From Erysipelotrichaceae bacterium (GTDB taxonomy: Bacteria; Bacillota_I; Bacilli_A; Erysipelotrichales; Erysipelotrichaceae): a DNA stretch of 64,000 nucleotides. The translations under genes and the position numbers were made by a program. This document shows, in pieces, positions 2,988-8,972 of this stretch (positions are counted from its first letter, which is position 1; each line of letters begins with the position of its first letter). Under the pieces are notes generated by a model. The model saw only the letters and a program-made list of their open reading frames with translations. It ran no database searches and had not been told where the DNA came from. Where the stretch lies: assembly GCA_017533785.1 (NCBI GenBank), contig JAFWII010000019.1:1-64000 (forward strand), read 5' to 3'.

Positions 2988-3044
2988 TCAATGAACTGTT
3001 ATGGTTTCAGTCGGTTTCAGAAAACCGCCGTTTCACAGAGACTC

Positions 3045-3431
3045 TCAGGCAGTATGGCAGTGATGATCTCCGTTGCATCCGTGTTCGTGGTCATGATCAT
3101 GGTGATGGCAGGTCTCATCCGGATCATATTCCAGAGTTCCGGAAAGATATGCCCTGACAACATCATCCGCTTTTCCCTGCGCACCCGGGATCAGTTCGAT
3201 ACCCATTTCGCTCAGCGCGTTTCTGGCACCCATGCCAATACCGCCGCAGATCAGAAGCTCAACATCCGCCTCCTTCAGAACGACCGCCAGCATGCCGTGA
3301 CCCTGTCCGTTAGACGAAAGGATCTGCGTATTGACGATCCCGCCGTCCTCCACATCGTAAACCTTGAATTCCTCAGTATGGCCAAAATGCTGGCCGACAT
3401 AACCGTTTTCATAAGTAACTGCGATTCTCAT
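3045..3431 (-). CDS. NifB/NifX-type iron-molybdenum cofactor-binding family protein (128 aa)
   Basis: Small cytoplasmic protein of the dinitrogenase iron-molybdenum cofactor family (NifX/NafY fold). It shows the usual N-terminus MRIAVTYENGYVGQHFGHTEEF and the central segment LLICGGIGMGARNALSEMGIEL. The C-terminal 20 residues are very His-rich (CHHHDHDHEHGCNGDHHCH), a likely metal-binding tail. No nitrogenase genes are present, so a general role in metal or Fe-S handling is more likely than cofactor delivery. An AAGGGAAG site precedes the ATG. Confidence 0.85.
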   Translation of the reverse strand: MRIAVTYENGYVGQHFGHTEEFKVYDVEDGGIVNTQILSSNGQGHGMLAVVLKEADVELLICGGIGMGARNALSEMGIELIPGAQGKADDVVRAYLSGTLEYDPDETCHHHDHDHEHGCNGDHHCHTA

Positions 3432-3474
3432 AAATCTTCCCTTCTTTTCAATATATGAATGATCTTCTTCAAAT

Positions 3475-3978
3475 TCAGCCTGTGATCAGCGACCGATACA
3501 GGCGGATCGCTTTTTCAAAACGGGCATTTTCCGTTTTCATATCTGATTCAAACAGCTTATCCGAGACTTCCTTCAGTCTGCAAAGATCGTAATGCTGTTT
3601 CCGGAAATAGGCGATAACGCCATCGTGATGATCCGAGGTCCTTCCGCAGATCGTCTCCAGTGTGATCATTCTGGTCCGTTCATCACATCCGCTCTGTTTC
3701 CCGATCCCTTCCAGCAGCATAGATTCCTGTTTGTCTTTGAAGGTCGTGATCGGGAAAAGAACATCTGTCAGCGAAGAAAAGCACGACCAGCTTTTCGGGT
3801 CGTCAGGGGCGATCTTATCGATATAATCCCGAGCCATCTCCAGACGCCAGAGATCTTTCTGAGCATCCGGTATTCCCAGCGTATTGAACACAGCAAACTG
3901 CTGCGGATCTTCTCTGGACATATGAAAAGACGACCCGTTATACCTCTTAAAGAATTCTTCTGCCTGTTCCGGCGTCAT
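3475..3978 (-). CDS. Conserved hypothetical protein (167 aa)
   Basis: Not recognised. A soluble, mostly helical protein with no signal peptide or membrane segment. Notable stretches are FKRYNGSSFHMSRED near the N-terminus and LWRLEMARDYIDKI. It ends two bases before the next gene upstream begins and so is co-transcribed with the PH-like protein. The order suggests a small three-gene unit (SUKH, PH-like, this protein). No function is proposed. Confidence 0.6.
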   Translation of the reverse strand: MTPEQAEEFFKRYNGSSFHMSREDPQQFAVFNTLGIPDAQKDLWRLEMARDYIDKIAPDDPKSWSCFSSLTDVLFPITTFKDKQESMLLEGIGKQSGCDERTRMITLETICGRTSDHHDGVIAYFRKQHYDLCRLKEVSDKLFESDMKTENARFEKAIRLYRSLITG

Positions 3979-4284
3979 TCAATCCTCCTTTTCGATTTCG
4001 GACCGGCGGTTCAGTTTGCTGTCAAGCAGGGAACGGAAACCTCCGGAACCGAAAACAATGAATCTATGGGTGCTCCCGTTATTCATTATGATCGAGAACG
4101 CGGGGAACAAAAGCGTTCTCTTGAACGAATAACCCTGAATGTCTGCGTATTTCATTTCGATATGCTTCATATCCGGAGTGACGGTGACCTTCCCCGTGCC
4201 ATATATGATCTTCTCAGCATCGGCTTTGATCCATCCGCCCAGAATACCATTCTTGATCAGACTGGCGATATAGTATTCTTCCAT
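3979..4284 (-). CDS. Small PH/GRAM-like protein (101 aa)
   Basis: Soluble protein with alternating beta-strand pattern and the segments GTGKVTVTPDMKHIEMKYADI and IIMNNGSTHRFIVFG, which resemble bacterial PH-like or GRAM domains. The start at 4284 is chosen because GGAGG sits 8 nt upstream; a longer frame starting at 4341 has no ribosome site. It abuts the downstream gene directly. The domain assignment is a fold-level guess; the role is unknown. Confidence 0.55.
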   Translation of the reverse strand: MEEYYIASLIKNGILGGWIKADAEKIIYGTGKVTVTPDMKHIEMKYADIQGYSFKRTLLFPAFSIIMNNGSTHRFIVFGSGGFRSLLDSKLNRRSEIEKED

Positions 4285-4372
4285 ATGCTTATCCTCCGAT
4301 TTCAGTTTACAATAAACGCATTTTCCTGCAAAACGATACAAACTTTGGTTTTCTTATAAGGCAATTATGTTT

Positions 4373-4804
4373 CTAGGCAAGTTCCTCATCCATTTTGATC
4401 AAGAACTCAAAAAGCGAGCCCGAAACTGTCTGGTATGTATCTTCCCCGATATTGCAGCTGTCGATCTGACAATAGACCTTTCTTTCCGGATTATATGCCC
4501 AGAGCTGATCGGCCATGTCCGAGCCAAGCACAACGAATCCCGGCCAGCTGTTTTCAACGTCGTATTCCTTATTGATCTGCTCCAGCTCTTCCATTCTGAA
4601 GAAACTGCCGTAATTGTATTCGCCCAGCGGCCCTTCGCCGCCGTTGTGTTTGAGCATGAAAGCGAGATAATCCTCCGGCAGCCGCATTCCGTTCACTTCC
4701 GTAATTACAGCTTCCGGTTTTTCATTGAACGAAAACTCATCAAACATTTCTTCGGCTCTTTTGTTTGTCGCTTCCTGAAACAGGGTTTCCCATTTCTTAT
4801 TCAT
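4373..4804 (-). CDS. SMI1/KNR4 (SUKH-1) family protein (143 aa)
   Basis: SUKH domain protein. The hallmark segment LPEDYLAFMLKHNGGEGPLG lies near residue 45, followed by FFRMEELEQINKEY, a GFVVLGSDMADQLWAYN strand, and a C-terminal helix FEFLIKMDEEL. In bacteria SUKH proteins are often immunity proteins against contact-dependent or secreted nuclease toxins, but many are orphans. No toxin gene is visible next to it. The start at 4804 has a GGAGGAG site 5 nt upstream. Confidence 0.8.
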   Translation of the reverse strand: MNKKWETLFQEATNKRAEEMFDEFSFNEKPEAVITEVNGMRLPEDYLAFMLKHNGGEGPLGEYNYGSFFRMEELEQINKEYDVENSWPGFVVLGSDMADQLWAYNPERKVYCQIDSCNIGEDTYQTVSGSLFEFLIKMDEELA

Positions 4805-4883
4805 CTTCTCCTCCGCAAGCAAAATCTTTCTCTTCGGGATCGATCAAAGTCATCCGGATCAGAATATCAAAATCTTGTTTTGA

Positions 4884-5939
4884 TCATTCGCCAACGCTGA
4901 CGATCTCCCAGTCGCCGTCCGCTGAACGGGCGAGCCACCATGCGTAATCTGTATAGTCCTTATTCGGTTCAAAACCGTCCGGCGCGTCCAGACCGGCATG
5001 GAAATCCATCAGGAATTCAGCTGCCTGCTCATATTCCGTTCCTTCTTCGAGAGAATTCAGCCAGGCAAGTTTCTCATCGCTTGCTGCTTCGTCACCGGCG
5101 TAGCGGATCGCGTGGAGTTCGCAGTCTGCCCAGGCGGCAAACTTGCATTTGATCGCCAGCATGGCGTCTGTCAGTTCGCCGACGGTGTAGACCTCCGATC
5201 CGCTCAGATCGATCGCAACTTCCGGCGCATTCTTTCCGGCAAGATACTCTTCCAGAGTCAGGCCAGGCTGAGACATGATCTCTTTTGCGGTATCAGCGCT
5301 GTCAACATAGCGGATATGCCACGGCTCATAACGATAGCCGGTAATGTGCTCTTCGCCTTCAAGGTAGCGAAGGATAAAACCGTATTCAGCGAGTTTCGAA
5401 TGGATCGTAGCCCAGAGTTCCTTATACTCCTCTTTCTCCATGTCTTCGTTATAATAAACATCCGTAAAGCTGCCGTCATCGTTTTTGATCCGGAAATACA
5501 GATCCAGTGCCAATCCGGTATGGTGTTCGGAGTAGCCCGGCTTGGCAACGGTCTTCGCTGCGTAATCGGCACCGTATTTCTCGGTAAAACTGTCCATGAT
5601 CTCCTGCTGTGCAGCAACGCTGCGGCGGGCGGAATCCAGTTCGGTGTATATGCCGTCATTCTTCTCCAGATCTGCTTTCAGCTGTTCATAAGCTGCGTAT
5701 GCTTTTTCTTCAACTTCCACTTCGTCACCAACAGAGTTTGTGATCGTCACTGTCTTTAAAGCGTCTTCCCAGTTTTCAGGAAGAGGGTTGAGTTTGTTGA
5801 CCAGAGCCATATAGTCAATGGCTTCCTCTTCGGCGGATTCCGGAGTTGCCGTAGCTTCCGGCTTCGGCGCCGGTGTCGCTGTGCAGCCGAACAAAATGAT
5901 TAAGGATAATGCCAAGAACATCAAAATGGTTTTTTTCAT
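4884..5939 (-). CDS. VanY-type D-alanyl-D-alanine carboxypeptidase lipoprotein (351 aa)
   Basis: Extracellular lipoprotein that trims D-Ala from peptidoglycan stem peptides. The signal peptide ends in the lipobox FGC (Cys19). The LAS-superfamily zinc site is complete: SEHHTGLALD gives His140 and Asp146, and EPWHIRYV gives His208. A Thr/Pro/Glu-rich linker follows the lipobox. About 110 C-terminal residues after the peptidase domain are extra, ending DYAWWLARSADGDWEIVSVGE, and may be a wall-binding or regulatory module. The ATG at 5939 has GGGAGG 10 nt upstream. Confidence 0.85.
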   Translation of the reverse strand: MKKTILMFLALSLIILFGCTATPAPKPEATATPESAEEEAIDYMALVNKLNPLPENWEDALKTVTITNSVGDEVEVEEKAYAAYEQLKADLEKNDGIYTELDSARRSVAAQQEIMDSFTEKYGADYAAKTVAKPGYSEHHTGLALDLYFRIKNDDGSFTDVYYNEDMEKEEYKELWATIHSKLAEYGFILRYLEGEEHITGYRYEPWHIRYVDSADTAKEIMSQPGLTLEEYLAGKNAPEVAIDLSGSEVYTVGELTDAMLAIKCKFAAWADCELHAIRYAGDEAASDEKLAWLNSLEEGTEYEQAAEFLMDFHAGLDAPDGFEPNKDYTDYAWWLARSADGDWEIVSVGE

Positions 5940-5959
5940 AAGAAGAATGCCTCCCATGA

Positions 5960-6913
5960 TTACACATCGGTAAACTGCTGTACCTTACTATTTCTGTATT
6001 CATAATATTCAATGGCATGAGAGATTGGGAACATATAATCAATATGATTTAAATCTTCTAAGGTATCTTCCCATTTATCTCCAGTAATAATCATCAATTC
6101 TGCAATATCACTTTTATCTAATTGATTGATATTTCCTTTCCATAGCATATTAAATAACCATAACTTGTAAGAGCCTGAAAAATCAGTTTTCTCCACTAAC
6201 TTCCAATAGTCTTCTCGGCATTTAATTATTTTTGGCTTATATCCTTTATTGTTTCGGACATCAACTTCTTCATTAAATATCAGGCAACTATTCCAATATG
6301 AATCCGAATTAGGTTTTATTGGCTCAGGGTCAAACCCGATTATAGTTACATACGGAAGATTGCTTTTATACAATCCGGGTTGTGCAAAGTATTTGGTAAA
6401 TCCATGGTGGTAAGGATCGTCTTTCTTCTCAAAAAGAACAAGACTTGATCCTACATAATTGTCGTTTTCATCGACGTGCCCATATTCATATATGTCTGTA
6501 TCATCTTTAAAGCCATCGCGTACAAAACCGATCACATCATCTCTGACACTTGTAGGAACGTTGAAACATATCTCTCTAATTATCTTAGGATCGGAATGAT
6601 TGCCGATAGCGACCTGATAAGGTAATACATATTTCAGTCTTTCATCATAGGGACTGACTTTGGTTATACCAAGCAGATAGAAAAGATATAAATCCGCCAA
6701 TGTTCCTCTAACTGCAAAAGGCTGCCCTTTCCTTCTTAATTCATTAGCAACGCAATGGCCGATATACACAAGCTTTGATGATCTTGTTTCGTGGATTATC
6801 AATAATTCATCAAATACCCTGTCTGTTTGTTCATCTGACAATTTTGAAAAGTCTATTAAGTTTTTCAATTTATTCAAATACTTGTTTTCTTGTTTTAGTG
6901 ATCTGTTTGCCAT
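5960..6913 (-). CDS. Putative degenerate DNA polymerase III alpha (PolC/DnaE)-like mini-protein (317 aa)
   Basis: AT-rich gene. Three segments recall the family-C polymerase core in order: residues near 70-95 (VRGTLADLYLFYLLGITKVSP) resemble the conserved GSRGSVG...GITEVNP block; FNVPTSVRDDVIGFVRDGF resembles the stretch after the PDIDLNF motif; and YMFPISHAIEYY near the C-terminus resembles YMFPKAHAAAY. The catalytic aspartates of PDIDLNF are absent (REICFNV instead), and the protein is far smaller than PolC (about 1400 aa). So it is probably inactive as a polymerase. The ATG at 6913 has GGAG 8 nt upstream. This assignment is from memory of motifs and unconfirmed. Confidence 0.45.
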   Translation of the reverse strand: MANRSLKQENKYLNKLKNLIDFSKLSDEQTDRVFDELLIIHETRSSKLVYIGHCVANELRRKGQPFAVRGTLADLYLFYLLGITKVSPYDERLKYVLPYQVAIGNHSDPKIIREICFNVPTSVRDDVIGFVRDGFKDDTDIYEYGHVDENDNYVGSSLVLFEKKDDPYHHGFTKYFAQPGLYKSNLPYVTIIGFDPEPIKPNSDSYWNSCLIFNEEVDVRNNKGYKPKIIKCREDYWKLVEKTDFSGSYKLWLFNMLWKGNINQLDKSDIAELMIITGDKWEDTLEDLNHIDYMFPISHAIEYYEYRNSKVQQFTDV

Positions 6914-7055
6914 ATATTTCTCCAATCATTGTGACTTGCAGTTAACAATTATCATGCTCTATAGGCTTTGTAGGACATACTTATACAAACAATATGATTT
7001 CATTGAAGAAAGATTACTGATGACTTATTTGGTTTGAATATTGCCTGATCGTTTA

Positions 7056-7772
7056 TCAGTGAGATTTCTTCAGTCCTTTTTTATTATCTAAATCAAATCC
7101 GATTTTCCAAAAGCTCATATCGAGCATCTTCATTTGAGGGTAGCTTCTTTCACCAACCTTCATTTTCTTTCTAGCAGCTTCAAAATCATCATAGTTTTCT
7201 TCATAGAAAGCAATTAGTTTTAGTAAAGATTTTTCATTATAATTTCGAGTGCTGACTTTATATTCTGTAATTCCGGAAATGAAATATCTGTCGTAAGCGG
7301 GAACACAAGCTAATGTTCCCATTAAAATTTTAGTGATTAAAGTATCAGAAAGATCGTTGTTGAGGTCCTTTTCAGAAATCGTGCGTCTGATTGGATCGTA
7401 GTATTTTTTCATGAAGTGATTCAGATCGTCAAATATAAGCTTTCGTGTTTCTTCTTTTTTTAATTCCTCGCAATTTGCTCCAACCAGACAATCGTACTTA
7501 TCTTTTAATAACTCCTTCACTACCGGAATGTGAATCTTGTAATCTTTTTGCAGCAGAAAAGAAGATCCTCTATACATTCCCCAGCTGGCCAGATAAAACG
7601 CCAGCATAAGGCTAAGATAATCATCATCGGGATCAGGCTGTTCTCTGGCATCACAAAATGCGGTATAGCAGTATTCCCATGATCTATATCTTCCGTGAGC
7701 ATCATCTTTTAATTCCTGATAAAAAGAATTGGCGCATCTTAATATCAAGTCTTTCGGTACCGATTTGTTCAT
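7056..7772 (-). CDS. Conserved hypothetical protein in AT-rich block (238 aa)
   Basis: Not recognised. Soluble, helical, rich in Lys, Asp and Tyr. Distinct stretches are SWEYCYTAFCDAREQPDPDD and LMLAFYLASWGMYRGSSFLL near the N-terminus. No signal peptide or membrane segment. An ATG at 7784 also exists, but an extended -10 (TGATATAAT, core 7786-7791) lies only 1 nt before it. The ATG at 7772 is 13 nt from that -10 and is preferred, leaving a leader of a few bases and no Shine-Dalgarno. Base composition is clearly more AT-rich than the flanks, which suggests transfer. Confidence 0.6.
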   Translation of the reverse strand: MNKSVPKDLILRCANSFYQELKDDAHGRYRSWEYCYTAFCDAREQPDPDDDYLSLMLAFYLASWGMYRGSSFLLQKDYKIHIPVVKELLKDKYDCLVGANCEELKKEETRKLIFDDLNHFMKKYYDPIRRTISEKDLNNDLSDTLITKILMGTLACVPAYDRYFISGITEYKVSTRNYNEKSLLKLIAFYEENYDDFEAARKKMKVGERSYPQMKMLDMSFWKIGFDLDNKKGLKKSH

Positions 7773-7818
7773 TATTCTAACCATTATTATATCAAGTATA
7801 GTTTTCCTAAGTCTTCAA

Positions 7819-8373
7819 TCAATCCCAGTGGCACCAGATAACCACATACTGTTCTTTATTCAGAATCGATCTGTCCAAAGAATGAATTACATCAGGAAAA
7901 GTTTCCGCAAGCTTCAGTACCGATTCTCTGTCCATTTTCCAGCAGCAGGATACAGGATATCCTTCATACCCGCCATACGTCGGTTTGCCTAGATAATCAT
8001 CCAGCTTTTTATCATTAATAGGCCAGGATCCGTCGTACACTCTGCCTTCAGCTCCCCAGTCGTATCTTTCACCCTCATCAGTTTGAATTACATTTTCCGG
8101 AATGAATTCATTGATGTACAGACAGCGTTCAGAAATCCACTGTGACATTGTTTCAATGCTTTGTTTCATGTAATACACTTCTCCTGCAAGATCAGACAGA
8201 TAAATCCTGTATTCTGCATCGCTGTTAAAGTCTTCTCTTTCTCTTTTCAGCCGGTTGTTTTTGATATCGTCTTTCGCAATCCTGATGATTTCACTCAGAC
8301 GTTTCTCATTAACTCCGTTATAATCTTCAGCAGTGGACGATTCCTCCTCATCAAGGTATGTTGATCGCTGCAA
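7819..8373 (-). CDS. Hypothetical protein, possibly 5'-truncated (184 aa)
   Basis: Not recognised. Charged N-terminal half, then EGRVYDGSWPINDKKLDDYLG and a Trp/Cys-containing C-terminus (YPVSCCWKMDRESVLKLAETFP). There is no ATG near the start: the first usable codon is TTG at 8373, with no Shine-Dalgarno. The frame stays open and protein-like for 11 more codons upstream (FIIERLHAHK) to a stop. This fits either a TTG start or a remnant of a longer gene. It belongs to the AT-rich block beside ssrA. Confidence 0.5.
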   Translation of the reverse strand: MQRSTYLDEEESSTAEDYNGVNEKRLSEIIRIAKDDIKNNRLKREREDFNSDAEYRIYLSDLAGEVYYMKQSIETMSQWISERCLYINEFIPENVIQTDEGERYDWGAEGRVYDGSWPINDKKLDDYLGKPTYGGYEGYPVSCCWKMDRESVLKLAETFPDVIHSLDRSILNKEQYVVIWCHWD

Positions 8374-8577
8374 CTTATGCGCATGCAGCCGCTCAATGAT
8401 AAAGACTTATAACTGATTAAGTTAAACCATGTTTATGAACCAAAAAGAATCTGCCTGGTTGTTTCTCAAAGAACAATTAAGCAAATTCTTCTTTTTTCGT
8501 GATTTTCTCATTTCCTGGACAAGGGTTCGAGTTTTTCCTAAGGGTCGCAACTCGAACTTTTTTAGCAAGAAGATGAA
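8374..8577. other. Intergenic stretch with an orphan plus-strand hairpin
   Basis: No convincing gene. It contains an inverted repeat with 9-bp arms (8525-8533 and 8549-8557) followed by six T on the plus strand (8558-8563), which has the form of a plus-strand terminator. No plus-strand gene ends here. Confidence 0.5.
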
Positions 8578-8612
8578 AAAAGCCTGTTTTTATCGTATAA
8601 AACAGGCTTTTT
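8578..8612 (-). terminator. ssrA terminator
   Basis: Long hairpin with arms AAAAAGCCTGTTTT and its complement around a short loop, then T-run on the minus strand. It begins 10 nt past the CCA end of the tmRNA. Confidence 0.85.
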
Positions 8613-8621
8613 GCATACCCT

Positions 8622-8972
8622 TGGTGGAGATGAGGGGAGTCGAACCCCTGTCCAGAAAAAGCCCCACATCGCAATTTCTACAGTTTATTCCGAATTTGTT
8701 TTAAGACGGATCTTATAGCCCGGACTGCCAGGACCCGAATCTGCCTTTTCGGTTTTCGGATGGTAAGAGGAAGGCTAACTTACTTCACCTAACTTGTGTT
8801 TACTCTGCAGCTGCTACAAGTTTTACAACTGCAGGCTTGCCACGTCTATAGCGACGTAATTTAGGCAAATGCTAATTCTGTATTGTTAGCGTTTATTTTA
8901 CTTTGATGATTAGGTCATCACTCCACTGCCGTTGCGATCCAGCATAATCCTGTCGAGACCAAATACATCCCC
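8622..8972 (-). ncRNA. ssrA: Transfer-messenger RNA (tmRNA)
   Basis: Rescues stalled ribosomes with SmpB. The 3' end on the minus strand reads GGTTCGACTCCCC, acceptor CATCTCC, then ACCA; the 5' end GGGGATG pairs with it in seven base pairs (one G-U). The 5' part has TTGGTCTCGACAGG, typical of tmRNA. The tag frame runs from a GCT resume codon at 8890 to TAA at 8861, encoding ANNTELAFA. With the tRNA-borne alanine the tag is A-ANNTELAFA, ending in AFA rather than the usual LAA. smpB lies directly upstream in the same direction. Confidence 0.95.

Follow-up and report, generated by a model that had tools for sequence, protein, structure and literature searches.

Probable dead mini-PolC, reduced to the palm-finger core, in the variable region downstream of ssrA in an Erysipelotrichaceae bacterium

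An additional, shortened relative of the DNA polymerase PolC is encoded near the tmRNA gene of a small gut-type Erysipelotrichaceae bacterium (GCA_017533785.1, contig JAFWII010000019.1), within the 64,000 nt stretch of DNA that was analysed (the window). As judged from its sequence, this 317-amino acid (aa) protein, P0001, is almost certainly an accessory protein that reproduces the PolC palm and finger domains in miniature and is catalytically dead; two or three of its catalytic aspartates are replaced, and it is carried in an exchangeable block at ssrA. Intact PolC and DnaE are encoded on other contigs of the same genome, indicating that P0001 is an extra, catalytically dead mini-polymerase.

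P0001 is encoded on the minus strand at positions 5960-6913, with its ATG at 6913-6911, a TAA stop codon at 5962-5960 and a GGAG ribosome-binding site (6920-6923, minus strand) 6 nt before the start codon. A first-pass annotation of the window had recognised an open reading frame (ORF) here and left its strand unstated; the plus strand of this interval contains many stops and is closed in the frame matching P0001. The probability of encountering no stop in 317 codons at the base composition of the gene is 2.8e-12, and GC contents of 0.43, 0.28 and 0.31 at the three codon positions are coding-like. The AT-rich block reported in the same annotation is real, with a GC content of about 35-38% around P0001 versus 48-57% in the flanks. 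Two further minus-strand ORFs accompany P0001, coding for proteins of 242 aa (7056-7784) and 184 aa (7819-8373). Family searches found no family for the latter, while the former belongs to a family shared with an Oscillospiraceae phage (59% identity), where it lies beyond the recombinases, which points to probable phage-type cargo. The tmRNA gene ssrA (8622-8972, minus strand; ARAGORN; Rfam RF00023, E=6.2e-42) forms the upstream edge of the variable block, and a VanY-like carboxypeptidase gene (4884-5939, minus strand; PF02557, E=1.2e-27; GC 0.515) starts just past the P0001 stop codon and is the first gene with a normal base composition.

The genomic context of P0001 differs in three sister genomes. 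In two of these (G257 and G259), smpB and ssrA are 90-91% identical to those of the host and are followed by different genes, and in the third (G258) the segment between ssrA and the next gene in common likewise differs. P0001 is absent from the segment downstream of ssrA in all three, and the variability of this segment among sister genomes identifies the P0001 gene as accessory. Neither an att-like direct repeat around the AT-rich block nor an integrase was found, so that the block boundary at ssrA is defined by position and comparison only. The region downstream of ssrA (3000-8620) is hypervariable in the genus and forms an accessory-gene hotspot; a SUKH-type (SMI1/KNR4) protein is also encoded in this segment, at 4373-4822. 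The designation of P0001 as an orphan holds within the collections searched. No ortholog was found in about 1,100 whole genomes queried with the protein or in 85,000 species genomes scanned with patterns, and pattern scans of genome and viral contigs using P0001, a three-member alignment and single relatives retrieved no true relatives. Searches of phages and plasmids by tblastn gave nothing significant for P0001, and a weak plasmid match (Cetobacterium, E=0.4) proved on later inspection to be a real PolC-like gene.

The homology of P0001 to the palm-finger core of the C-family replicases is established by sequence comparison and places the protein among the C-family DNA polymerases. A profile constructed from 46 PolC cores, which is independent of the relatives found through P0001, scores 23.6 bits, compared to a best score of 9.2 bits among 20,000 shuffles, and aligns in two colinear segments (residues 24-89 and 228-303). 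P0001 reaches 41.5 bits, and every other ORF of the window no more than 1 bit, with a wider profile that combines the PolC cores with the relatives P0002-P0004 (see below) and three PolC-like proteins borne on elements. This profile is not fully independent, since P0002 and P0003 were found through their resemblance to P0001. Positions 11-91 of PF07733 align to residues 20-104 with an E-value of 3.9e-4 and 20.6 bits, below the curated cut-off of 23.9. DnaE and PolC ORFs from hundreds of genomes are among the best non-self matches, over residues 23-139, and a DnaE profile domain extends over residues 26-138 and takes in the degenerate catalytic block. Amino acid identity to PolC is about 20%. 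No match to P0001 was found in NCBIfam, where the curated cut-offs of the PolC equivalogs were not reached, nor in PHROGs, PADLOC or the PDB sequences. The likeness to family-C polymerases that the first-pass annotation had drawn from motifs is therefore well above chance, and its order of the blocks (residues 23-91, 113-138 and 228-304) is correct. The profile statistics (23.6 and 41.5 bits) also lie in the range, an E-value well below 1e-3, that it had named as support, and the shrunken, dead PolC/DnaE-like core that it proposed is backed both by these statistics and by independent relatives of the same architecture. The structural comparison which it had suggested ranked PolC first at low confidence: in a Foldseek search against 350,542 PDB chains the four best chains were PolC, with E-values of 0.1-0.3 for a model of pLDDT 47.6, the six-sequence input alignment of which itself contained PolC, and the result is weakly supportive. 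A single-sequence AlphaFold model (pLDDT 35) and its Foldseek search were meaningless and were set aside, as was a match in L023 over residues 76-232 which bore no resemblance to PolC by eye. Where genomes with in-frame TGA codons matched residues 210-304, the match lay in the finger region of PolC, and these loci were interpreted as probable PolC genes translated with code 4.

Four stretches of P0001, all encoded on the minus strand, can be assigned to the polymerase core. Residues 23-91 (6641-6847; ...RGTLADLYLFYLLGITKVSPYD) represent the start of the C-family palm/NTPase region (family HMM, 27.0 bits). These are followed by the degenerate catalytic block REICFNVPTSVRDDVIGFVRDGFKDD (residues 113-138; 6500-6577), delimited by the DnaE HMM domain and the MAFFT columns, and by SNLPYVTIIGFDPEP (residues 184-198; 6320-6364), which occupies the MAFFT column of KLDILGHDDP. 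The end of the finger domain is found at residues 228-304 (6002-6232; second HMM domain, 11.2-11.3 bits), where KIIKCREDY...HIDYMFPISHAIEY corresponds to GCRDDIM...KIKYMFPKAHAAAY of PolC. In the MAFFT alignment the aspartate pair of PDIDLNF is occupied by E114 and C116, in agreement with the loss first reported, and the third catalytic aspartate (KLDILG) by T190, where the alignment is less certain, so that P0001 lacks the three catalytic aspartates of an active PolC or DnaE. The protein begins at the NTPase region, ends 18 residues past YMFPISH and has no zinc-binding insert, and no PHP, exonuclease, OB or (HhH)2/clamp-binding region was found among its Pfam domains.

Dead miniatures of this kind recur on mobile elements. 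Three further mini-PolCs (P0002-P0004) of 332-496 aa were identified. P0002 (443 aa, G592) has a DnaA_N domain fused at its C-terminus (E=1.7e-7). The element on which it is encoded bears Rep, and nearby genes code for an Xre regulator, a GIY-YIG and Schlafen-type helicase protein, a UvrD helicase and a replication initiator. P0003 (496 aa, G548) is located at the end of a prophage, beyond the holin and tail genes, and adjoins a WYL regulator and a restriction-endonuclease-like protein. P0004 (332 aa, WP_013283140; PF07733, E=3.3e-12), which shares 19% identity with P0001, is encoded on plasmid pCY186 of Butyrivibrio proteoclasticus. The same plasmid codes for a dead mini-DnaE, P0006 (480 aa, WP_013283142, L129:20181-21623; PF17657, E=4.7e-34; PF07733, E=2.2e-30), in which S and R stand in place of the first two catalytic aspartates and A in place of the third. 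The three catalytic positions read E/C/T in P0001, I/D/G in P0002, S/D/N in P0003 and S/E/G in P0004, so that the losses differ among these proteins while the frame of the core is kept. The genes on pCY186 are arranged in the order WYL, unknown, MBL-fold, unknowns, DnaX, mini-DnaE, AAA/M41 and mini-PolC, followed by DnaA/Hda, SGNH, unknown, full PolC, unknown, DnaB, an ATP-binding protein and Rep, a setting which suits plasmid replication as well as conflict. True PolCs dominate among the matches listed in an order-wide profile search for additional miniatures, a result by which further miniatures are neither shown nor excluded.

A gene cluster coding for a PolC-like protein, a DnaB-like ATPase, an MBL-fold protein and an HTH/WYL regulator recurs on an IMG/VR prophage contig (L124:5096-12791), in genome G630 (L078:2953-12095) and on pCY186 (L129:9381-27345), and is a candidate system. 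Between the first two loci, the MBL-fold proteins match with an E-value of 2e-40 and the PolC-like proteins with 2e-53, although such pairwise E-values among the compared loci derive from a very small database and serve for ranking only. The L124 cluster is situated between an endolysin and an integrase gene, and its MBL-fold protein resembles LmuA of Lamassu (1.7e-6). Plasmid p3 of Cetobacterium somerae encodes a diverged 914-aa PolC-like protein (L110:3768-6512), annotated as hypothetical; DnaB-like and UvrD-like genes are arranged alongside it, marking p3 as a plasmid with its own replicase. Several short, unannotated phage records, including OR848508, OR846608 and MT835953, contain PolC matches with E-values down to 8e-23, which possibly represent host DNA in phage assemblies.

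Having neither catalytic residues nor the parts that tether a polymerase to the replisome, P0001 most likely acts by binding; it would be able neither to copy DNA nor to be fixed in the replisome. The surface of the replicase core which it retains would bind something that a real polymerase core binds. If an invading phage or a rival element makes a protein directed against the polymerase core of the host, P0001 could capture or detect that protein; alternatively, it could compete with the real core on DNA. The preferred reading, put forward tentatively, is that P0001 serves as a decoy or inhibitor in conflicts between mobile elements, with a putative binding function, target and benefit. The homology, the loss of different catalytic residues in each miniature, the intact PolC and DnaE elsewhere in the genome, the open frame, the accessory location, the probable phage-cargo neighbour of P0001 and the conflict-like company of P0003 and P0002 speak in its favour. 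Against it, PADLOC 2.0 assigned no known defence family to P0001 or P0004, with a neighbour of P0001 reaching only 0.0064 to Csx1, and the structural model is of low confidence. The neighbourhoods of the relatives suit a decoy, an immunity protein or a domesticated fragment, as the first-pass annotation had envisaged, and equally a replication-accessory role.

This last role, in which the dead core would be a structural or regulatory subunit of a mobile element that recruits or steers the host replicase, P0001 being a copy left behind at ssrA, is somewhat unlikely. The location of P0004 and P0006 among DnaX, DnaA/Hda, full PolC and DnaB genes on pCY186 and the DnaA_N domain of P0002, on an element with a replication initiator, bring it close behind the decoy or inhibitor, and dead Y-family polymerases do act in this manner (PMC12926913). 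However, no replication genes adjoin P0001 or P0003, and P0001 lacks the clamp-binding tail and all of the N-terminal tethering domains of PolC. It is unlikely that P0001 is instead a decaying relic, with no present function, of a polymerase gene that some mobile element had picked up. Its extreme shortening, its AT-richness and the lack of an ortholog in the about 1,100 whole genomes and the 85,000 species genomes (the latter scanned with patterns) would be in keeping with decay, but neutral decay would not be expected to leave 317 codons unbroken in a gene whose product shares about 20% identity with PolC (2.8e-12), the gene retains a ribosome-binding site, and several independent relatives start and end at nearly the same points. 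That P0001 is no polymerase homolog and matches the motifs by chance is very improbable and already contradicted, as the sub-threshold Pfam score, the lack of a match among the PDB sequences and the uninformative single-sequence model and Foldseek search are set against two colinear segments, profile scores of 23.6 and 41.5 bits with none of the 20,000 shuffles above 9.2, and the ORFs of DnaE and PolC that rank among the best matches other than P0001 itself.

The occurrence of similar dead miniatures on unrelated prophages, plasmids and other mobile DNA suggests that such elements employ imitation replication enzymes for binding and not for copying DNA. It is conceivable, albeit unlikely on present evidence, that the dead C-family mini-polymerases (mini-PolC and mini-DnaE, some of them joined to DnaA-type domains or encoded next to such domains) constitute a class of replicase-core mimics recurring on mobile elements and make up a new type of replisome-mimicking conflict system, of defence or counter-defence, in combination with WYL/HTH regulators, metallo-beta-lactamase-fold proteins and DnaB-like ATPases. 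If a set of dead mini-replicases does recur in this way on islands, plasmids and prophages, it would offer a concrete and testable approach to the ways in which the bacterial replication fork is manipulated, evaded or guarded by mobile elements, and would warn those who annotate genomes against treating every short PolC fragment as a pseudogene.

Inactive polymerase homologs have been recognised before, in the Y and X families among others. Keyword searches of two surveys of bacterial polymerases (PMC3919608, PMC12926913) yielded passages on dead homologs in these two families and on the frequently inactive PHP domains of C-family polymerases, and none on dead C-family cores; nor were reports of dead C-family miniatures found in the open, non-subscription literature. 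A functional parallel is ImuB which, with other dead Y-family homologs, is a dead relative of an active polymerase with a role other than synthesis, as P0001 would be, and works as a subunit of the DnaE2 mutasome (PMC12926913). ImuB is, however, a Y-family protein of an SOS mutasome cassette with clamp and RecA-NT motifs, whereas P0001 matches the C family only and has no imuA/dnaE2 cassette among its neighbours. Compared to PolC itself (TIGR01405/NF001688; PF07733 and PF17657), the palm-start motif, the position of the catalytic block and the finger-end motif are colinear in P0001, but PolC is about 1,450 aa long and contains PHP, exonuclease and OB domains, a zinc insert and a clamp-binding tail, all of which are missing from the 317-aa P0001, and its catalytic aspartates are E, C and T in the latter. 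P0004 and P0006 of pCY186 are likewise a dead mini-PolC and a dead mini-DnaE borne on a mobile element and, unlike P0001, occur in a replication-like cluster (DnaX, DnaA/Hda, PolC and DnaB). In the pairwise comparison of loci, the Cetobacterium protein ranks closest to P0001 (E=9.8e-6 in a very small database, for ranking only). Both lack the zinc insert and share a block ending in ...NVP, while the Cetobacterium protein, unlike P0001, has a long N-terminal part and retains all three catalytic aspartates (PDLDINVP, KLDIL).
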